64,000 nt of DNA from Streptococcus sp. M334 (lineage in GTDB: Bacteria; Bacillota; Bacilli; Lactobacillales; Streptococcaceae), in the NCBI RefSeq assembly GCF_000187745.1, contig NZ_GL732486.1, forward strand, positions 544,736-608,735. Direction: 5' to 3'. A program made the translations under genes and the position numbers. How positions within the stretch are numbered: position 1 is the first letter of the stretch; every line of letters starts with the position of its first letter. Positions 3,008-52,917 of the stretch are shown here, one piece after another. Below the pieces are notes generated by a model. The model was not told the DNA's origin. It did not search any database and was given only the letters and a program-made list of their open reading frames with translations.

Positions 3008-3856
3008 ATGATTAAAAAAATCTATCCCATTTTAACTATTTTACTAGGTGCTGGCATTTATGCTTTTGGTCTAACCTATTTTGTAGTTCCCCATCATCTC
3101 TTCGAAGGAGGGGCTACAGGCATTACTCTTATTACCTTTTATCTTTTTGAAATCCCTGTTTCCATCATGAATCTGCTGATTAATATTCCTCTATTCATCC
3201 TAGCTTGGAAAATATTTGGAGCAAAATCTCTCTATTCTAGTTTGCTTGGGACCTTGGCTTTATCTGCCTGGTTAGCTTTTTTTGAGCGTATTCCCCTTCA
3301 TATTGATCTTCAAGGTGATTTACTAATTACTGCCCTTATATCTGGAATTCTATTAGGAATTGGTCTTGGAATTATCTTTAACGCTGGAGGTACAACTGGT
3401 GGAACTGATATTCTAGCTCGTATCCTCAACAAATACACTCATTTCTCCATGGGGAAACTACTTTTTATCTTAGATTTTTGTATTCTCATGCTCATTCTCC
3501 TTATTTTTAAGGATTTGAGATTGGTTACTTACACCCTACTCTTTACTTTCATTGTATCCCGAGTGATTGATTTGATTGGGGAAGGAGGATACGCAGGTAA
3601 AGGATTTATGATTATTACCAAACGTCCTGACCAACTTGCTAAGGCTATTAATGATGACCTAGGAAGAGGTGTTACTTTTATCTCAGGGCAAGGCTACTAT
3701 AGTCAAAAAGATTTGAAAATCATCTACTGTATTGTCGGAAGAAATGAAATTGTTAAAATGAAGGAAATGATTCATCGAATCGATCCTCAAGCCTTTATAA
3801 CTATTACAGAAGCCCATGAAATCCTAGGAGAAGGCTTCACCTTTGAAAAAGAATAA
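3008..3856 (+). CDS. YitT family membrane protein (DUF2179)
   Basis: Integral membrane protein of 282 aa. About five hydrophobic helices in the first 190 residues form the YitT_membrane domain, including the conserved FNAGGTTGGTDILA segment near residue 125. A soluble C-terminal DUF2179 domain (about 200-275) follows, with GRGVTFISGQGYYS. The family is widespread in Firmicutes and its transport substrate is not established, so no function is claimed. The ATG at 3008 has a well-placed AAGAGGTG. The gene is monocistronic and ends in a hairpin shared with convergent ribF. Confidence 0.88.
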   Translation: MIKKIYPILTILLGAGIYAFGLTYFVVPHHLFEGGATGITLITFYLFEIPVSIMNLLINIPLFILAWKIFGAKSLYSSLLGTLALSAWLAFFERIPLHIDLQGDLLITALISGILLGIGLGIIFNAGGTTGGTDILARILNKYTHFSMGKLLFILDFCILMLILLIFKDLRLVTYTLLFTFIVSRVIDLIGEGGYAGKGFMIITKRPDQLAKAINDDLGRGVTFISGQGYYSQKDLKIIYCIVGRNEIVKMKEMIHRIDPQAFITITEAHEILGEGFTFEKE

Positions 3857-3928
3857 AAAGAGGTAATGTAGTAACCTCAGAAGTTAGACTAAATCATCTA
3901 CCTTTTGGGTTACAGACAACCTCTTTTT
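3855..3928. terminator. Bidirectional terminator between YitT gene and ribF
   Basis: AAAAAGAGGT (3855-3864) pairs with ACCTCTTTTT (3919-3928), with A and T tracts on both sides, between two convergent genes. A smaller inner hairpin (AGGT..ACCT) sits at its left end. Confidence 0.7.
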
Positions 3929-3943
3929 TATTTATTTAGGCAC

Positions 3944-4861
3944 TTAAGACCAATTGCGAGCTACTTCTTCATCAGCCTTTAACTGATCCACTAATTGATC
4001 AACTGAATCAAATTTGGTCATATCTCGAATGCGATCAAGCCAATAAACCATGACGGTTTCCCCATAAATATCTTGATTAAAATCAAAAATATTGACTTCA
4101 AAACGTGCTTCTTCTCCATCAAAGGTCACATTTTTCCCGACACTAGCCATAGCACGATACTTCTGTCTTTGAATCTCAACATCAACGACATAAACGCCAT
4201 CTGCTGGCATATAAGTACGATCTAAAAGCACCAAATTAGCTGTTGGATAACCAATCGTACGGCCACGAGCATTGCCATGAACCACCATACCTCTTGATGG
4301 AAGCGGTGCCCCCAAAAGTTCTCCTGCTTCTTTCACATTTCCGTCTAAAATAGCTTGACGGATACGTGTTGAACTAATCTTTCCTTTCTCATCTTCTACA
4401 GGTGGGACAATAATGACTTCTCCATCAAAGTAATCCTTCAAATCTTCTGCCGTTTTTTGGTCAGAGCCAAATGTATAATCAAAACCTGCAACAATAATTT
4501 TGGCATTCATAGCCTTAATATAAGTTGCAAAAAATTCTTCTGCCGTGAGACTAGCGAATTGACTACTAAAATCAAGGAGATATAATTCTTCTACACCTTC
4601 ACGCTTTAATTTTCTCTCACGTTCAGCAGGGTTCAAAATATGTAAAAATAGGTCAGGATGATAAGGCTCTAAAGCGATCTTTGGGGATTCATTAAAGGTC
4701 ATAACGACGATAGGCAACAAATCCTTTCTCGCAGCCTTGTTGGCAACACGAAATAATTCTTGATGTCCCTTATGTATACCATCAAAATAGCCAAGAACTA
4801 CGACTGAATCAGATGGTGTGCCAATATCTTTTTGGTTTTTTATAGGAATAGTAATAATCAT
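3944..4861 (-). CDS. ribF: Bifunctional riboflavin kinase / FAD synthetase
   Basis: Makes FMN from riboflavin and ATP, then FAD from FMN and ATP. The protein is 305 aa, normal for RibF. The N-terminal nucleotidyltransferase half shows GYFDGIHKGHQ (about residues 24-34) and the SSTRIRQAI motif. The C-terminal riboflavin kinase half starts near residue 185 with the GRTIGYPTANL motif. It is transcribed alone. The ATG at 4861 has no Shine-Dalgarno. Instead a perfect extended -10 (TGATATAAT) ends just six bases before the start codon, so the mRNA is predicted to be leaderless. Confidence 0.96.
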   Translation of the reverse strand: MIITIPIKNQKDIGTPSDSVVVLGYFDGIHKGHQELFRVANKAARKDLLPIVVMTFNESPKIALEPYHPDLFLHILNPAERERKLKREGVEELYLLDFSSQFASLTAEEFFATYIKAMNAKIIVAGFDYTFGSDQKTAEDLKDYFDGEVIIVPPVEDEKGKISSTRIRQAILDGNVKEAGELLGAPLPSRGMVVHGNARGRTIGYPTANLVLLDRTYMPADGVYVVDVEIQRQKYRAMASVGKNVTFDGEEARFEVNIFDFNQDIYGETVMVYWLDRIRDMTKFDSVDQLVDQLKADEEVARNWS

Positions 4862-4867
4862 AAAATA

Positions 4868-4896
4868 ATTATATCATAGTGATAGCTATTTCTGAA
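4868..4896 (-). promoter_or_regulatory. ribF promoter predicting a leaderless mRNA
   Basis: On the minus strand: TTCAGA as -35 (4891-4896), a 17-base spacer, TGATATAAT as extended -10 (hexamer 4868-4873), then TATTTT and the ribF ATG. Transcription normally starts about seven bases after the -10, which is the A of the ATG. Confidence 0.7.
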
Positions 4897-4961
4897 CCAG
4901 AAAATCTGAAATGACATTTTTTTAACCTGAAGTGTATCATTTTAGAAGAATTTTATTTTTG

Positions 4962-5065
4962 ATACTCTTCGAAAATCTCTTCAAACCACGTCAGCGTCTC
5001 CTTGCCGTACTCAAGTACAGCTTGCGGCTAACTTCCTAGTTTGCTCTTTGATTTTCATTGAGTAT
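4962..5065 (+). repeat. BOX element, short form (boxA-boxC)
   Basis: Starts ATACTCTTCGAAAATCTCTT and ends TTTTCATTGAGTAT, the ends of the streptococcal BOX repeat. It contains the core that the BOXA1R typing primer matches (CGTCAGCGTC..CTTGCCGTA). At 104 bp there is no room for a full boxB, so this copy is A-C. With the ribF promoter and two hairpins it accounts for the 4862-5222 gap. Confidence 0.9.
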
Positions 5066-5114
5066 GAAATCGTAATACAGACCAAGAGATTGAGATAAGA
5101 ATCTTAAAATCAGA

Positions 5115-5161
5115 AAAACACATCATATCAGCTAGTTAAAACTTGATACAATGCGTTTTAT
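5115..5161. terminator. Second hairpin downstream of map
   Basis: AAAAACACATCATATCA pairs with TGATACAATGCGTTTT using several G-U pairs, with A and T tails on both sides. It lies beyond the primary map terminator and may act as backup. It shares AGCTAG and CTTGATACAAT with the HU terminator. Confidence 0.45.
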
Positions 5162-5165
5162 TATA

Positions 5166-5213
5166 AAAAGATCTACTGGATTTTTTATCAAAATAAACTT
5201 CCAGTAGTCTTTT
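5166..5213 (-). terminator. Terminator after map
   Basis: CTACTGGA and TCCAGTAG form an 8-bp perfect stem, extended by AAAAGA/TCTTTT with a one-base bulge. It lies 10 bases after the map stop codon and ends the murA-GNAT-spxR-map operon. Confidence 0.75.
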
Positions 5214-5222
5214 CACTTTTTA

Positions 5223-6083
5223 CTAATAAGTTCCTTCTTCGCCTTGGCTAGTCAAGATAACAGGTCCATCTTTCGTAATGACAAATTGGTGTTCATACTG
5301 ACATGACAATCCACCGTCAATGGTCTTATGCGCCCAACCAGTCTTCATATCTGTATCAATTTCCCAGTCGCCAGTATTAATCATCGGTTCAATGGTCAAG
5401 ACCATTCCTTCACGAAGGCGAAGCCCACGACCTGCAATACCATAGTTAGGCACCATTGGTTCTTCATGCATTGTAGGTCCTACACCGTGGCCTACTAGAT
5501 CTCGGACAACCCCGTAACCACGACTTTCAGCATATTCTTGAATGGCTGCACCGATATCACCAATACGGTTTCCAACAACAGCTTGTTCAATCCCCTTATA
5601 CATGGCTTCTTTAGTTACATCCATCAGATTTTTCACTTCTTCAGACGGTGTACCAACAGCATAAGCCCAACAAGAGTCTGCTAGACCACCAGAGTAACTC
5701 TGAGTGTATTTTTTCATTTGCTCCACATTGTTGAAGTTTAATTTTGAGACATTCAGGTCAGATTTAGCTATAGGACCTCCCAAAACCATATCAACTTTGA
5801 GTAAATCACCATCTTTCAAGATATAGTGACGAGGGAAAGCATGAGCTACTTCATCATTAAGAGAGCAACACGTAGCATAAGGATAGTCCATCATGGCACC
5901 GTCAACTCCAATTTGAAGCGGAAGGAAATTTTCTTCCTTACAACGACGTCGGACATATTCTTCAACTTCCCACATATCTATGCCAGGCTTAATCAAATCA
6001 CGTAAGCCGATATGAATACTTGCTAGAAAATCACCAGCCTTATCCATAGCTTCGATTTCACGAGCTGATTTTAATGTTATCAT
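5223..6083 (-). CDS. map: Type I methionine aminopeptidase
   Basis: Removes the initiator methionine from new proteins; cytoplasmic metalloenzyme of the M24 family, 286 aa. The metal ligands appear as DMVLGG (Asp), SDLN (Asp), GHGVGPTMHEEP (His), TIEPM (Glu) and a C-terminal YEHQF (Glu). The region before the second Asp carries an insertion of about 25 residues relative to E. coli MAP, which I recall as usual for streptococcal enzymes. It is the last gene of the operon murA-GNAT-spxR-map, 15 bases after spxR, with a TAGGAG ribosome site. Confidence 0.95.
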   Translation of the reverse strand: MITLKSAREIEAMDKAGDFLASIHIGLRDLIKPGIDMWEVEEYVRRRCKEENFLPLQIGVDGAMMDYPYATCCSLNDEVAHAFPRHYILKDGDLLKVDMVLGGPIAKSDLNVSKLNFNNVEQMKKYTQSYSGGLADSCWAYAVGTPSEEVKNLMDVTKEAMYKGIEQAVVGNRIGDIGAAIQEYAESRGYGVVRDLVGHGVGPTMHEEPMVPNYGIAGRGLRLREGMVLTIEPMINTGDWEIDTDMKTGWAHKTIDGGLSCQYEHQFVITKDGPVILTSQGEEGTY

Positions 6084-46429: not shown

Positions 46430-46513
46430 ATAGTTGTCATTGCTTTTCAATAGTTGAGTTTTTACTTATTTTTCTTTTAAATCATTTCTATTAATTTCTA
46501 CCGTTTTTTAAAA

Positions 46514-46534
46514 TCGTATTCATCTTCGTATTCA
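46514..46534 (+). repeat. Left integrase arm-type direct repeat
   Basis: TCGTATTCA-TCT-TCGTATTCA. The same 9-mer pair with a 3-base gap occurs at 52839-52859, right after the integrase gene. Confidence 0.55.
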
Positions 46535-46736
46535 TTTTCATAGTCATCTTTGCCCGTATAGTTGAGAAGGTGTCAATTTACTTCTAATAGTTTACAAAAG
46601 AATCAGTGAGCAATTTCACTGTTTTTATTTTTGACAAAACCACTACTCCTCCAAGCAGATGATTTTACTCATTTGAAATGCGTTTATTCGATTTACATTT
46701 CTTGGATTTTAAATCCATTTTTAAGCAAACAAAAAA

Positions 46737-46805: not shown

Positions 46806-47725
46806 TTAAGAAAGCAATTCATTAACTCGATTTTGAACCGCTTGTGCGTCGTAACCAGCGCTCGATAAATTATCATATCTTTCTTGACCGTTCCCCCACA
46901 AGCCTTGTAGCACTTCATTTGCTACGGTATCAAGGTCTGACTTAGCGTTTCCACCATTTAAAAGACTATTCACTCTGTCTTGTACAGCTTGTGCGTCATA
47001 ACCAGCGTTTGTTAAGTTGTCGAAACGTTCTTGTCCATTGCCCCACAAACCCTGTAATACTTCTTGTGCTACGCTGTCAAGGTCTGAATTAGCGTTTCCA
47101 CCATTTAGAAGACTATTCACTCTGTCTTGTACAGCTTGTGCTTTGGGCTTAGCTTCTTCATCATCTAGTAAAACAATGTTCTTGTCGTAAGGATTTGAAG
47201 AGTATTGCCACCAGCGAATACTATCCATGGATGGGAAATATTCAAAGTCAGCGTTCCCATCGTTCAAGCCATATCCTGCAATCCAAAGGCTATTTGGGAA
47301 TTTTGCAAGAATCTGTTCATAATAGATATTATTAAGTGTAAATGGCTTGTAGCTGTAATAGATTGGCTCATAGCCGTTTTCTTTGAGGATTTCCATAAAG
47401 CGAATACAAGCATCTGTGTTTGCCTGTTTATCTCCACTAGCGTGATCTTCGTAATCAAGACACAAGTATTTTACTTTTTGAGGTACATTATTAAGAAAGT
47501 AGCGTGCCTCTCGTTCGGCTTCTTCAATGTCACCTCCAAACCATGCGAAATGATAAAATCCAACAGGGGTTGATTGCTCAACTTGAGCGGACAGGCAAGG
47601 GTTGATATAGCTTGTACTTTCAGAAATTTTGATAATAGTATTCTGTGTACCCATGTCAGCCAAAATACCTGTAATATCGTATCCATTGTGGCTAGATACA
47701 TCGATGAATAAGTCGTTTTCTTCAT
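46806..47725 (-). pseudogene. Frameshifted GH25 lysozyme with CW_7 repeats (Cpl-7 type)
   Basis: Phage endolysin that would cleave the glycan strand of peptidoglycan. AGGAGG, six A, then ATG (47725) AAG AAA gives a perfect start. The lysozyme frame (NDLFIDVSSHNGYDITG) begins one base out, as if one A were lost from AAG AAA AAC. That frame has a TAG just upstream and no start codon until after the catalytic N-terminal segment. The rest is intact: GH25 body, then two full CW_7 cell-wall-binding repeats of 48 aa (DLDSVAQEVLQGLWGNGQER type) and part of a third. CW_7 binding does not need choline, unlike most pneumococcal lysins. With the base restored it would be about 306 aa. Confidence 0.88.
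46850..47145 (-). repeat. Tandem CW_7 coding repeats, 144 bp each
   Basis: Two nearly identical 144-bp units plus a partial unit, encoding the CW_7 modules of the lysozyme. They are prone to unequal recombination; Cpl-7 itself has three. Confidence 0.75.
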
Positions 47726-48460
47726 TTTTTTCCTCCTAGTCTTCGCCTTCGCTTGGCTAAAAGCGTTCAGTTCCATAATCTTCATCTTGGTATTAGTGCT
47801 TGGCTCCCACGTCATCCAGTAAGCTAAAGCAGCGTCCGCATGCTTCTTGGGTAGCAGGTCATAGCGACTAATATTGAAGTGGTCTTTAAAGTCAATCTCA
47901 GCTTGTCTAAAGACTGACTGAGCGAAAATCTTATCCGCATAAGCTGGACTGTCGATACCACCCAGGCATGCCACGACCCTAGCCTTACGCTTCTTCAGGA
48001 GCGATTGAGCATAGCTTGGATGAATCGGTTGCTCACTCTTCAAATAGTCAATATCTTCCAGCATGGTAGCCTGTTGCTCACGCAATTTCTTTTGACCAGT
48101 AAACAGAGCGATGAAAGCATCCTCGTCCAAATCCTCACGGATAAATCCGCCCTGCTTACGAATAGCTGGCAAGACCTCTGATGTCACCCAGCGTTTGAAC
48201 TCCTTGGCCTGAGGCAACTTGCTGGATAAGATAAGAGAGTAGAGCCCAGATTCATTGATGATGATAGTTTCTTGAACCCTTCCTAAATTATCTGTGAGGC
48301 CCTGTTTTAGGGCGTCATCTTCATCAACGTGAAGAGCAATTGCATTTCTAGCCTTGCTATATCCTAGGATGTCCGCAACATCTTTCCCAACGAACCACGG
48401 CTCGTCATCAATTGTCAAAGTACGGACTTCCTGCCCGTGAAAGTTAAAAATTTCGTTCAT
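47471..48460 (-). CDS. Phage antirepressor (Bro-N + ORF6C), reading into lysozyme
   Basis: Bro-N domain (about 1-100: EVRTLTIDDEPWFVGKDVAD, GLYSLILSSKLPQAKEFKRW) and an ORF6C-like C-terminal domain (about 130-235). Such proteins lift CI repression by binding repressor or DNA. From residue 246 (the Met at 47725) the frame runs through the lysozyme gene in the wrong phase to residue 329. The last 84 residues are therefore almost surely not native. The junction suggests that a large deletion fused the early region to the lysis region. AAAGGAA precedes the ATG. Confidence 0.82.
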   Translation of the reverse strand: MNEIFNFHGQEVRTLTIDDEPWFVGKDVADILGYSKARNAIALHVDEDDALKQGLTDNLGRVQETIIINESGLYSLILSSKLPQAKEFKRWVTSEVLPAIRKQGGFIREDLDEDAFIALFTGQKKLREQQATMLEDIDYLKSEQPIHPSYAQSLLKKRKARVVACLGGIDSPAYADKIFAQSVFRQAEIDFKDHFNISRYDLLPKKHADAALAYWMTWEPSTNTKMKIMELNAFSQAKAKTRRKKMKKTTYSSMYLATMDTILQVFWLTWVHRILLSKFLKVQAISTLACPLKLSNQPLLDFIISHGLEVTLKKPNERHATFLIMYLKK

Positions 48461-48513: not shown

Positions 48514-49134
48514 ATGACTGAAAGAATTTGTTTTATTGTAACTGCTATCGGTGAATCTGGAACAGAAACTAGAGATAGAGCAGATGAGGTTTTTTCTTAC
48601 CTGATAGCCCCAGTCTGTGAGGAATTAGGATATAAACCAGTACGAGTTGACCAAGTAGATGCAGTTGATAATATCAATGAAACTATTATCAACTACCTTA
48701 AGACTGCCCCTATGGTTGTAGCAGATATGACAGGACACAATCCGAATGCATTTTATGAATTAGGATTTCGACAAGCAAAAGAACTCCCCTTAGTTCCTAT
48801 CATACAAGCAGGTAATGGACTTCCTTTTGATGTTATATCCCAAAGAACTGTTTTCTATAACCTTTCTGTTGGAAAAATCGAGCAATCCAAAAAGGATTTA
48901 AAAGCTAAAATGAAAAGCTTTGAAAACTTTGAAATGCCTGAGAATCGTGCCGAAAGAGATCTTACACTTGAGGATCTCAATGACAATTTGAACAAAAAGC
49001 TAAACAAGATACTAAATCTGTTAGAGAAGCAACAGTCTTATTCTCCTCTCGTACACACGCATGATTTTGAAACATCGCATGACGGTAAGGTAATTATTAC
49101 ACGAACTAGAAAGAACCGTCCATTATTCCCCTAA
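48514..49134 (+). CDS. Nucleoside 2-deoxyribosyltransferase-like fold protein
   Basis: 206 aa. Residues 1-125 have the NDT/TIR-related Rossmann-like pattern: FIVTAIGESGTETRDRADEVF, MVVADMTGHNPNAFYELGFRQA (near 69-90) and PFDVISQRTVFY. A Lys/Asp-rich helical stretch follows (about 125-180), then a short beta tail. The fold can act on nucleosides or NAD-like molecules, and related domains serve as effectors in some bacterial defence systems. It lies in the opposite direction to the surrounding early genes with its own promoter, as morons do. A role in phage exclusion is a guess; the catalytic function is not established. Confidence 0.65.
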   Translation: MTERICFIVTAIGESGTETRDRADEVFSYLIAPVCEELGYKPVRVDQVDAVDNINETIINYLKTAPMVVADMTGHNPNAFYELGFRQAKELPLVPIIQAGNGLPFDVISQRTVFYNLSVGKIEQSKKDLKAKMKSFENFEMPENRAERDLTLEDLNDNLNKKLNKILNLLEKQQSYSPLVHTHDFETSHDGKVIITRTRKNRPLFP

Positions 49135-49683: not shown

Positions 49684-50433
49684 ATGAAAGTCGAAAACAA
49701 AGAAATTTTTGCCAATAATCTAAGTTTTTACATGGAGCAAAAAGGAGTAGACAGAAATACATTATGTGCAGACTTGGATTTGAAATACACTACAGTTCGT
49801 GACTGGCTAAAAGGAATAACTTATCCTCGGATTGGTAAAATTGAACTTTTGGCAAACTATTTTAATATAAATAAATCTGACCTTATCGAAAACAAAATTT
49901 CTACTGCTCAACCGTCAGACTCCCTTTTAGAAGAAATTACAAACACCGCTCGAAAATTATCCCCTGAAAATAAAAAAATCGTTCTACGAACGTCTGAGGA
50001 GCTTCTGGAGAGTCAAAACGAAGAAGAAACGAAGGAAAACGAAGTGTCGGAAGTCATCCAGCTTTATAGTTACGACTACTACGACCATGCTGCTTCTGCA
50101 GGTACAGGCCAGTATTTGAACGATGTAAGAGTGGAACGGATTGAGTTACCAGTAGATATCGATGCCGACTTTGTCATTCCGATCAAAGGGGACTCCATGG
50201 AGCCAGACTATCACGATGGCGACCTGGTATTTATCCAGACCAGTGTGGACTTAAATAACGGTGTTATCGGAGTGTTCAACTATAACGGTGATGCTTATAT
50301 CAAGCAGCTTGTCATCGACAAAGACCAGGCATACCTACATAGCCTAAACCCAGCTTACAAAGATATGCCAATCACACCCGACACCGACTTCCGAATTATC
50401 GGCGAAGTCGTGGATTTGTATAGAGAGAAATAA
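49684..50433 (+). CDS. CI/LexA-type phage repressor
   Basis: 249 aa. N-terminal XRE helix-turn-helix (about 8-62, with KYTTVRDWLKGITYPRIGK), linker, then S24 peptidase domain. The auto-cleavage site Ala139-Gly140 (ASAGTG), catalytic Ser171 (GDSMEP) and Lys207 (AYIKQL) are all present. RecA-triggered self-cleavage and prophage induction would therefore be possible. AAGGAGG precedes the ATG. The three TTGCG-N7-CGYAA sites upstream are its likely operators. Confidence 0.92.
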   Translation: MKVENKEIFANNLSFYMEQKGVDRNTLCADLDLKYTTVRDWLKGITYPRIGKIELLANYFNINKSDLIENKISTAQPSDSLLEEITNTARKLSPENKKIVLRTSEELLESQNEEETKENEVSEVIQLYSYDYYDHAASAGTGQYLNDVRVERIELPVDIDADFVIPIKGDSMEPDYHDGDLVFIQTSVDLNNGVIGVFNYNGDAYIKQLVIDKDQAYLHSLNPAYKDMPITPDTDFRIIGEVVDLYREK

Positions 50434-50457
50434 AAGTAATATAAGAAAGGAAAAAAT

Positions 50458-51351
50458 ATGGGAAGTAACAGAACTAACCAAGAAATAGCTATCTATACTG
50501 CAACGATAATACAAGAACTGGAGGATTATCTTCACCACCTTCAGAGAATGAACGACGAAGAGAGTAAACGATCTGATAAAATAGCGCAATGGATAGAGAA
50601 TTGGGTAAAATACCTAAAGCTTGAGAAAGTTTTTAACTCGCGAAGTATTCCGGCTTTAAAAAGAGGAAGTATCGTTTATGCTGATTTTGGTTTCAATGTT
50701 GGCAGAGAATATGGAGGACTTCATTATGCAATAGTTCTGAATAAAACAGATGCACGTTCAAACCATCTTCTTCATGTATTGCCTTTAACCTCTGTAAAAG
50801 AAACAACTGATATGTCTAATTTAAAATATTTTCAATTTCCAATTGGCGACGAAGTGTTTCAATTGTTAAAAAATGAGGCTACTCAAAAAATTATAGAATT
50901 AACTAAATTATATAAACGTTTTTCAAACAAAGATGCTGAATTACGCGAAAGAGCTGTAATAGTTGAATCACTAATCGATGATAATATAAAAGCTTTTGAA
51001 GTGATTAAAAACTTACCAGCTTCTGATAGAGACGATTCTTTTCTCGAACAAATACGAACTATTAATAAAAATATAGACTTTACAAATGCTGAAGCAGATA
51101 AAATAAAACAAGAATTGAAAGATAATACAGCTTTGCTGTCAGAACTTGATGAGAAAATAGAGTATGCTAATAAATTTATTCTAAAAATAAAAAATATGAA
51201 CAAAGATAGCATTGTTTTATTGAATCAGGTTACAACAATTAGTAAAATGAGACTCTATGATCCCAAAAATAATAAATCAATTTTGAATGGTATTGTACTG
51301 TCTAATAATACTATGAACAAAATAGATGAGGCGCTGAAAAATATTTTTTAA
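50458..51351 (+). CDS. PemK/MazF-like protein with coiled-coil insert
   Basis: 297 aa, 24 bases after the repressor and likely in its operon (lysogenic expression). Residues 67-115 have the MazF start: LKRGSIVYADFGFN, GREYGGLHYAIVLN, LHVLPLTSVK. The MazF end is found only at 248-297: KDSIVLLNQVTTISKMRL and the final helix. Between them (about 130-245) lies a charged, coiled-coil-like insert; residues 1-60 are also helical. MazF proteins cleave RNA as dimers. No antitoxin gene is seen, so it may be a silent or self-inhibited toxin, or have another role. Expression in a lysogen suggests superinfection defence or addiction; this is inference. Confidence 0.75.
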   Translation: MGSNRTNQEIAIYTATIIQELEDYLHHLQRMNDEESKRSDKIAQWIENWVKYLKLEKVFNSRSIPALKRGSIVYADFGFNVGREYGGLHYAIVLNKTDARSNHLLHVLPLTSVKETTDMSNLKYFQFPIGDEVFQLLKNEATQKIIELTKLYKRFSNKDAELRERAVIVESLIDDNIKAFEVIKNLPASDRDDSFLEQIRTINKNIDFTNAEADKIKQELKDNTALLSELDEKIEYANKFILKIKNMNKDSIVLLNQVTTISKMRLYDPKNNKSILNGIVLSNNTMNKIDEALKNIF

Positions 51352-51454
51352 AATTCGAGTATTTTTATTGACTTTTCTTAAAATTAGGGTTAGAATTAAA
51401 TCATAAGGTCGCTTGACGACAAAATATATGATACTGTCCCAAGAGGACAATTCT

Positions 51455-51482
51455 AGCCCTGCTCTTATGAGTTGGGCTTTTA
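51455..51482 (+). terminator. Terminator of the repressor operon
   Basis: AGCCCTGCTC and GAGTTGGGCT pair around TTAT, followed by TTTTAATTTTT. Confidence 0.8.
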
Positions 51483-51499
51483 ATTTTTATCTAGCAACT

Positions 51500-51516
51500 G
51501 TTTCCATTTTGGAAAC
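51500..51516. repeat. 17-bp palindrome upstream of the integrase
   Basis: GTTTCCA-TTT-TGGAAAC, perfect 7-bp arms. It lies between the repressor-operon terminator and the integrase and may be a protein-binding site. Confidence 0.5.
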
Positions 51517-51527
51517 AACTCAAAAAA

Positions 51528-51567
51528 ATCCCCACACTCTCCGACGGCCATCTTTGAGTGTGAGGAT
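51528..51567. repeat. Long-armed hairpin upstream of the integrase
   Basis: ATCCCCACACTC and GAGTGTGAGGAT, 11 of 12 paired, with a 16-base loop. With the terminator and palindrome it accounts for the 333-base gap before int; no gene seen. Confidence 0.55.
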
Positions 51568-51684
51568 TCAACCCTCCATCTAGCAAGCAATGGAAAGGAT
51601 GATAAAAAAATACAACTATAGTTTATCATAAGTTCGACACCTTTTCAACTATGCGGGCAAGCAATCGAAAAGAAAGGGCTTTTT

Positions 51685-52830
51685 ATGATAAAAAAATATA
51701 TTACAAAAAAAGGAGAGACTAGATATCTCTTTCAAACATATCTGGGTATAGACCCTGCTACTGGAAAAGAAAAGCGCACAACAAGACGTGGATTTAAAAC
51801 CATTAAAGAGGCAAAGGTTGCCGAACGTGACCTTCTCTTAGACGTTGAAGAAAATGGTTTTTCAAACAATGAAGATTTCCAGAACCCTACTTTCGCTGAA
51901 GTCGCTGAGTTATGGCTTGATAGCTATAAAAACACCGTAAAACCAACAACCTATCAGAACGTTAAGAAAAAACTTGATGTTATGATTGACTTGTATTTTA
52001 CAGATATGAAAATCCAGCAGATCAGTGTAGCTTATTGTCAAAAAGTTGCTATCCAGTTAAGTAATCGCTATATCCTCTATGCCAATTACTACTCTGTCAT
52101 CAGCCGTATTTTCAAGTATACCACTTCTATTGACATTATTAAGTCAAATCCCTTAGATAAGATTATCAAGCCTAAAAATAGGCCATTAAAGGGCAAAGAA
52201 AACTACTATACAAAACAGGAACTAACCGAGTTCCTTAAAGTTTACAAAGCAAATTGCAAACCAGTAGACTATACCTTTTTTCACTTACTCGCTTTTTCTG
52301 GATTGAGAACTGGAGAAGCAATCGGCCTCATGTGGTCAGATGTTGACTTTGAAAATAAACGATTAAGCATTTCTCGGACGGCTGTCGTTGTTAATAAAAA
52401 ACAAACTGTTCAGGACCCTAAAACCAAAATGAGTAAGAGGGTTATCACTTTAGATGATGAAACTCTAAATGTATTGAAATTCTGGAAGCGTCAGCAGATA
52501 AAAGAGTATTTTCGGGCTAGTGTGCCTTACAAACATGATTCAAATTATATCTTTACGAATAGTTTCGGAGGATGGATTTCTCCTTCAGCTGTTAAAGAGA
52601 GACTTAGAAGATTCTTTTATGAACATAAGGATGTCAAAAAAATCACTCCTCACGGTTTCAGGCACACACACGCTTCTCTCCTCTTTGAAGCAGGTGTTAC
52701 AGCCAAAATCATTTCGGACAGATTAGGTCACAACAATGTCCAAACCACTCTTGATATGTACACCCACATCAATGACAATCAACGTGTTGAAGTCGTTGAT
52801 CAGCTTATGACTTTTATCCGTTCAAGCTAA
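51685..52830 (+). CDS. int: Phage tyrosine recombinase (integrase)
   Basis: 381 aa. An N-terminal arm-binding domain (AP2-like, about 1-60), a SAM-like core-binding domain (about 65-165) and the catalytic domain with Arg in SGLRTGEAIGL, His-x2-Arg in HGFRHTHASLL, His in LGHNNVQTTLDMYTH and the Tyr nucleophile in that last motif. It appears intact. It sits at the right end of the element next to arm-type repeats, as integrases normally do. AAAGGG precedes the ATG. Confidence 0.95.
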   Translation: MIKKYITKKGETRYLFQTYLGIDPATGKEKRTTRRGFKTIKEAKVAERDLLLDVEENGFSNNEDFQNPTFAEVAELWLDSYKNTVKPTTYQNVKKKLDVMIDLYFTDMKIQQISVAYCQKVAIQLSNRYILYANYYSVISRIFKYTTSIDIIKSNPLDKIIKPKNRPLKGKENYYTKQELTEFLKVYKANCKPVDYTFFHLLAFSGLRTGEAIGLMWSDVDFENKRLSISRTAVVVNKKQTVQDPKTKMSKRVITLDDETLNVLKFWKRQQIKEYFRASVPYKHDSNYIFTNSFGGWISPSAVKERLRRFFYEHKDVKKITPHGFRHTHASLLFEAGVTAKIISDRLGHNNVQTTLDMYTHINDNQRVEVVDQLMTFIRSS

Positions 52831-52838
52831 AAGTAAAG

Positions 52839-52859
52839 TCGTATTCAATCTCGTATTCA
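52839..52859 (+). repeat. Right integrase arm-type direct repeat
   Basis: TCGTATTCA-ATC-TCGTATTCA, matching the pair at 46514-46534 in unit and spacing. Confidence 0.55.
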
Positions 52860-52917
52860 CTTTTAGATATACACTGTAAAACCAATGATTTCAAGGGTAC
52901 AGGGAACCGTGAGCAGT

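Follow-up and report, generated by a model that had tools for sequence, protein, structure and literature searches.

The gene examined here lies between a CI-like repressor gene and a tyrosine integrase gene of a prophage remnant in the window, that is, the whole 64,000-nucleotide stretch of DNA that was analysed (Table 1). Its reading frame was recovered as placed in the initial annotation. The gap to the repressor gene was 24 nt, and no terminator-like site was found on the + strand from 49684 to 52830 in a simple scan, so that the co-transcription of the two genes proposed earlier is plausible from the sequence. In the same remnant, a 206-aa protein (48514–49134, +) matched the PADLOC TIR effector model with an E value of 2.6e-18 and no Pfam family over cut-off; this gene fits a defence role but does not prove one. 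At 46806–48460 (–), a Bro-N/ORF6C antirepressor reading frame was found to overlap a GH25/CW_7 endolysin reading frame in a different frame, which probably marks where a deletion reduced the prophage to 6.3 kb.

Table 1. Features of the locus, with positions in the window
Feature	Position	Strand	Basis
Imperfect direct repeat, probable attachment-site half	46509..46538	.	repeat search (D2)
CI-like HTH/S24 repressor	49684..50433	+	ORF, Pfam
MazF/PemK-fold protein, 297 aa, PHROG 1412, proposed toxin	50458..51351	+	ORF, Pfam, PHROG, AlphaFold2
N-terminal helical hairpin, residues 7-56	50476..50625	+	AlphaFold2; also in arm-less relatives
MazF barrel, first part, residues 66-131	50653..50850	+	Pfam, AlphaFold2, structure alignment
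Glu84, place of MazF Glu20; 68/68 rows	50707..50709	+	row comparison
His89, place of catalytic Arg25; His in 64/68 N-terminally extended rows	50722..50724	+	row comparison
Thr111-Ser112, place of catalytic Thr48; Thr/Ser at 111 in 66/68 rows	50788..50793	+	row comparison
Inserted helical hairpin arm, residues 132-245	50851..51192	+	AlphaFold2, divergence (dN, dS)
MazF barrel, second part and C-terminal helix, residues 246-297	51193..51348	+	Pfam, AlphaFold2, structure alignment
Promoter-like site of RNA cassette, 10/12 matches, spacer 17	51368..51396	+	scan; same place in relatives
Structured RNA, proposed antitoxin, model R1	51397..51485	+	folding, covariation, covariance model
Small hairpin 1: loop of 5 nt, stem of 4 pairs that are invariant in 8 distinct rows	51408..51420	+	
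Small hairpin 2: loop of 5 nt, stem of 4-5 pairs, two of them with both partners changed in relatives	51436..51448	+	
Terminator hairpin, then T-rich tail	51455..51478	+	terminator scan, folding, covariation
Tyrosine integrase	51685..52830	+	ORF, Pfam
Imperfect direct repeat (83%), probable attachment-site half	52834..52863	.	repeat search (D2)

The Pfam model PemK_toxin (PF02452) matched the protein in two stretches with 45.8 bits, against a curated cut-off of 23.1, and the PHROG 1412 profile, spanning most of the protein, matched residues 19–297 at 1.1e-45. The AlphaFold2 model, made from a 44-row alignment, had a pLDDT of 90.8 and showed helices at residues 7–30, 33–56, 132–184, 194–245 and 283–296, and strands at 71–76, 88–93, 104–112, 126–130, 251–254, 259–262 and 266–268. 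Taken together, the two barrel parts could be aligned with the solved MazF structures 4mzt_A (Z 12.6, rmsd 2.5, 108/114 residues) and 4mdx_A (Z 11.5, rmsd 2.9, 108/115 residues). Because the two parts align jointly with solved MazFs, the modelled protein is a MazF fold interrupted by a 114-residue helical hairpin, the arm, which takes the place of the β4–β5 turn. This agrees with the earlier description of MazF-like strands bracketing a helical insert of ~115 residues, and structure prediction, which had been proposed as a check, returned a MazF-like fold. In structure searches the arm matched generic helical hairpins with Z of 12–13, a common arrangement, and the N-terminal hairpin was barely covered by matches. 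Beyond the initial annotation, the analysis brought out this N-terminal hairpin, a His at the place of the catalytic Arg, an RNA downstream and the membership of the gene in a family.

Glu20, Arg25 and Thr48 are reported to matter in other MazFs (PMC7354611, PMC8634880). The catalytic positions were compared in the 68 rows whose N-terminal extension has at least 50 residues. The Glu and Thr/Ser expected of the PemK/MazF superfamily were present in the window protein as Glu84 and Thr111, and the expected Arg was found to be His89. The loss of MazF catalytic residues, which had been named as counting against a MazF, thus concerned the Arg position and not the other two. Lys263 was kept in 64 of the 68 rows. 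Arg or His could not serve as a strict mark of the extended class, since Arg was found in 4/66 extended rows and His in 4/27 short PemK/MazF rows, the latter drawn from top-scoring hits. One His-type locus (L146) had an 83-aa upstream ORF that was AbrB-like by eye and had no Pfam match.

The prevalent His raised the possibility that the protein binds RNA through a MazF fold that has lost catalysis. PemK-Sa6, which has non-canonical catalytic residues, is reported to be inactive (PMC11915791). A dead fold nevertheless appears very unlikely, given the retention of Glu in all and of Thr/Ser in nearly all extended rows, the low dN/dS of the core given below, and the Lys reported at the Arg place of M. 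tuberculosis MazF4 (PMC7354611).

When the window gene was compared with that of a relative (L114), dN/dS was 0.06 in each core part and 0.35 in the arm; it was 0.07 in the N-terminal hairpin, where dS was saturated. The core/arm contrast was weaker against a second relative (L112), for which dS was uneven. Of 22 disjoint pairs, which partly share clusters, 19 had a higher dN in the insert than in the core. Judged by these substitution rates, the MazF core is under purifying selection and the arm is the fastest-changing part of the protein. Within the arm, identical residues were found at 16/45 hydrophobic and 33/69 other positions, so that the variation extends beyond polar positions.

For the PHROG 1412 family, tblastn at E ≤ 1e-5 returned 58 Staphylococcus and 42 Streptococcus records of phages or satellites, 100 in all, and 10 plasmid records were found as well. 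Scanning yielded 71 loci from viral and 26 from genome contigs; the family was present in 14 of 197 genus genomes, the own genome counted, and the nearest matches (73–79%) were in Streptococcus. All 44 aligned members matched PHROG 1412. Family proteins are already annotated as PemK/MazF toxins, and papers on Staphylococcus phages list among virulence genes pemK/mazF genes (PMC6507118, PMC11018700) that probably belong to this family. Literature searches on the protein side brought up no experimental work on the family. One viral contig (L087) carried two family members side by side, at 3839–4492 and 4623–5588, and gene copies were disrupted or shortened at L128, L134, L200, L142, L199 and L037, the first three being broken.

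After dereplication at 95% identity, 60 family loci were left, 45 of which had a co-directional ORF of at least 120 aa within 1.5 kb downstream. Integrases made up 31 of these 45 neighbours (26 Phage_integrase and 5 Resolvase matches). Upstream ORFs of at least 110 aa (n = 52) matched HTH_3 in 23 cases, Peptidase_S24 in 22 and Phage_integrase in 3 (L028, L061 and L075).

Relatives without the arm were found on plasmids and at L131, all of them with the N-terminal extension. The AlphaFold model of L131 (pLDDT 85.9) had the same layout minus the arm and could be aligned with 1ne8 (Z 14.6, rmsd 2.3, 109/116 residues). The plasmid PemK-like proteins of B. subtilis, Sutcliffiella, Acinetobacter and Natranaerobius (L033–L036) share the N-terminal extension and the MazF core with the window protein but lack the arm, and the Acinetobacter form keeps Arg. 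In a quick and weak core-only tree of 93 rows and 97 columns, the arm label needed 5 changes, 2 of them forced by starred branches. Eight extended rows fell on the canonical side of this tree, so that the extension may have more than one origin. One row (L164) was hand-labelled as paired in the tree and counted as unpaired in the upstream-ORF count described next.

No protein antitoxin gene of the kind expected in a type II pair was found adjoining the window gene, and profile searches of the genome found no MazE, RHH_1 or second PemK gene. After dereplication at 80%, 93 PemK/MazF rows were examined for an upstream ORF of antitoxin-like size and place (50–130 aa, within 35 nt), which was present in 6/66 extended rows compared with 21/27 short rows; the rows are related, so p values here and below are descriptive. 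Three of the six matched M78 peptidase (L141, L007 and L029) and three had no Pfam family (L039, L002 and L034). The tables of residues and upstream ORFs, promoters and hairpins leave out L142, L102 and the second L087 ORF, and a separate survey of upstream ORFs leaves out L128, L134, L200 and L149. The arm-less forms L033, L035 and L036 on plasmids and L131 were also without such an ORF, and arm-less L034 had a 73-aa upstream ORF of no known family. Because arm-less relatives mostly lack a protein antitoxin as well, the arm is not what replaced it, contrary to the suggestion that the insert is a built-in inhibitor standing in for an antitoxin. A role of the arm as a sensor, also suggested there, is possible.

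These counts bear on a further alternative, that of a single protein restrained by its own N-terminal hairpin or arm and freed by infection, for which CapRel is a precedent (PMC9712102). The extension accompanies the missing upstream ORF and the arm evolves fastest, as such a protein might. Against this, the RNA described below accounts for the missing protein antitoxin without any self-restraint, eight extended rows lie on the canonical side of the weak tree, and the arm varies at more than its polar positions. We therefore regard self-restraint as quite improbable, and the arm or N-terminal hairpin as antitoxin substitute was lowered as a candidate by the RNA evidence.

Inspection of the segment behind the gene revealed a cassette (51368–51485) of a promoter-like site, two tandem small hairpins and a terminator. 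The stretch 51352–51490 was 95.6% identical to that of L112 (135 nt) and 89.8% to that of L114 (137 nt), despite a dS of 1.09 between the genes of the window and L114. The 94-nt RNA folded at –26.6 kcal/mol, with z scores of –4.0 (window), –4.2 (L112) and –4.2 (L114). In an alignment of nine sequences, 8 of them distinct, 96.5% of the pair cells were standard and 5/18 pairs were changed on both sides; these two values were matched by 0 and 2 of 500 shuffles, and across the observed values the number of shuffles that reached them ranged from 0 to 13 of 500. No variation was seen in helix 1, and some of the covariation sits in the terminator. The same hairpin pair was found 40–90 nt behind the stop codon in the window (L001) and in L002, L006, L114, L009, L007 and L021, and the same cassette layout in L002, L007, L009 and L021. 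None of the 11 Rfam matches up to E 10 in 51300–51700 was over cut-off, and the genome holds one copy of the RNA. As a candidate protein partner, a 56-aa ORF 61 nt downstream was rejected: it had no family match, differed in length in L112 and L113, and was not listed for L114. Because this ORF is not kept, the segment was taken as non-coding. The earlier statement that there is no antitoxin thus stands for a protein antitoxin and is probably wrong as a whole, in view of the structured RNA directly behind the gene.

It was found that promoter, hairpins and terminator recur in the 170 nt behind 48 other members, with differing sequences; two near-copies of one hairpin are often present, for example at L040, L038 and L027. 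A promoter-like site lay in the first 90 nt behind 34/65 extended genes compared with 1/27 short genes. The median z of the downstream fold was –3.4 for extended and –1.9 for short genes; the stretches preceding those extended genes gave –0.5. Terminators were found behind 51/65 extended and 16/27 short genes, a difference that was not significant (p 0.07); one row was unusable in these comparisons. At least three hairpins at nt 15–150 were found behind 33/47 arm-bearing, 4/18 arm-less extended and 2/27 short genes, and upstream of 5/47 arm-bearing genes; the mean behind arm-bearing genes was 2.85, compared with 0.98 after shuffling. Two hairpins more alike than 95% of shuffles were present behind 27 arm-bearing, 5 arm-less extended and 2 short genes. 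The pattern was already known when the hairpin tests were devised, the loci are related, and the window locus itself fails the hairpin-count test (2 hairpins, p 0.27). Behind arm-less extended genes the cassette was weak, as the count of 4/18 indicates, and behind plasmid L033, L034 and L036 it was not significant by simple tests.

A covariance model of the RNA (R1) hit 10 of the 197 genus genomes, and each of the ten hits followed a PemK gene directly or at a short distance. In five (G000, G064, G122, G149 and G157) a family gene ended 40–50 nt before the hit; these or near copies of them were part of the model, and the other five (L228–L232) were unseen by it. The unseen hits lay behind a PemK_toxin gene of another kind, with the His motif and without the arm. 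In four of them the matching stretch began 8 nt after the PemK stop codon; in L232 a distance of 190 nt separated the RNA from a PemK ORF that has 83 aa and may be shortened. The RNA at these loci was nearly the same, at 92–94% over 150 nt or more. In L228, L229, L231 and L232, a conserved 198-aa ORF to which no function is assigned lay between RNA and integrase. Since the hits track two kinds of PemK gene and the integrase is not always adjacent, these sequence searches indicate that the RNA goes with the PemK toxin gene and not with the integrase. The near-identical RNA behind arm-less PemK genes also makes the RNA a better candidate than the insert for the place of the antitoxin.

The RNA might instead be a regulator or target, bound or cut by the protein or acting in trans, that controls repressor, integrase or lytic genes as a lysis–lysogeny device. 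Such a device would suit the integrases found in 31/45 downstream and also in 3/52 upstream neighbours, and a link between MazEF and the control of lysogeny is reported for SPbeta-type phages (PMC10516654). However, the RNA lies behind PemK even where the 198-aa ORF precedes the integrase, L028 carries its integrase upstream and the cassette nonetheless behind the gene, and related cassettes differ in sequence. A regulator of this kind is therefore considered unlikely, and an integrase leader was likewise lowered as a candidate by L028 and L228–L232.

The explanation we favour, with a chance that we put at about one half, is a type III-like toxin–antitoxin pair in reversed gene order, formed by the MazF/PemK-fold protein and the two-hairpin RNA downstream. 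It builds on the computed fold, the conserved positions, the covarying cassette, its association with PemK genes and the absence of a protein antitoxin; expression of the RNA, its binding and the neutralisation of the protein are what we infer. The toxin would be the His-type, RNase-like protein, and the antitoxin the small RNA made from its own promoter directly downstream and ended by the terminator. In the lysogen the RNA would be produced, and the protein would bind and perhaps cut it and stay inactive. If the supply of RNA dropped, through loss of the element or shutdown by an infecting phage, the protein would cut RNA and growth would stop; the prophage would be kept in place and the lysogen defended. 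The arm would be an optional, fast-changing extra, perhaps a sensor.

ToxIN is a protein–RNA pair, and type III toxins have a MazF/Kid-like fold, with a repeat RNA upstream of the toxin gene. The window locus would resemble ToxIN in its proposed pairing of a protein of RNase fold with an adjacent RNA that ends in a terminator; the conserved cassette has two hairpins of similar shape, which may be tandem units. It differs in that its RNA lies downstream, has a putative promoter of its own and contains two hairpins. This order, together with the His in place of the catalytic Arg, a residue whose change in R25A abolishes the activity of one MazF (PMC8634880), was counted against the RNA-antitoxin reading. 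No ToxN family match was found among the Pfam hits up to E 1, a search that a distant relative could escape. The fold and the Glu and Thr/Ser positions are shared with canonical type II MazF/EndoA, from which the protein is distinguished by its N-terminal hairpin, its arm, His for Arg and the lack of a protein antitoxin. It is classed here in PHROG 1412, with a MazF fold; it is not placed in type II, and it would work like type III without being a member of it. PHROG 1412, labelled 'antitoxin mazE-like', includes PemK-like phage proteins such as that of Staphylococcus phage 77; among them the window protein, matching the family over 19–297, is long through its 114-residue arm. MazF-mx of Myxococcus xanthus is likewise a MazF without a mazE gene (PMC4803016), but it is a host developmental gene.

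With slightly less assurance, it is suggested that a widespread, unrecognised type III-like class exists in Gram-positive prophages, satellites and perhaps plasmids, in which His-type PemK/MazF toxins would be paired with promoter-driven two-hairpin RNA antitoxins, the RNA would be swapped between PemK toxins, and some toxins would carry a fast-evolving coiled-coil arm. Solo toxins are a long-standing puzzle (PMC2701414), and the annotation of many PemK/MazF genes is that of a type II toxin whose partner is missing. If the RNA is the partner, the apparently orphan toxins in Staphylococcus and Streptococcus phages would be explained, one toxin superfamily would be served by both protein and RNA antitoxins, and neither 'antitoxin mazE-like' nor 'type II toxin' would be a fitting label any longer.

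Two further groups of PemK-like genes were observed. Eight loci from the window's class (L148, L151–L153 and L155–L158) encode PemK-like proteins of 233–266 aa that are extended at the N terminus, carry His where Arg is expected and end in a charged tail in place of an arm. In Geobacillus virus E3 (L041), two PemK-like genes are followed by a gene annotated as a putative immunity protein.
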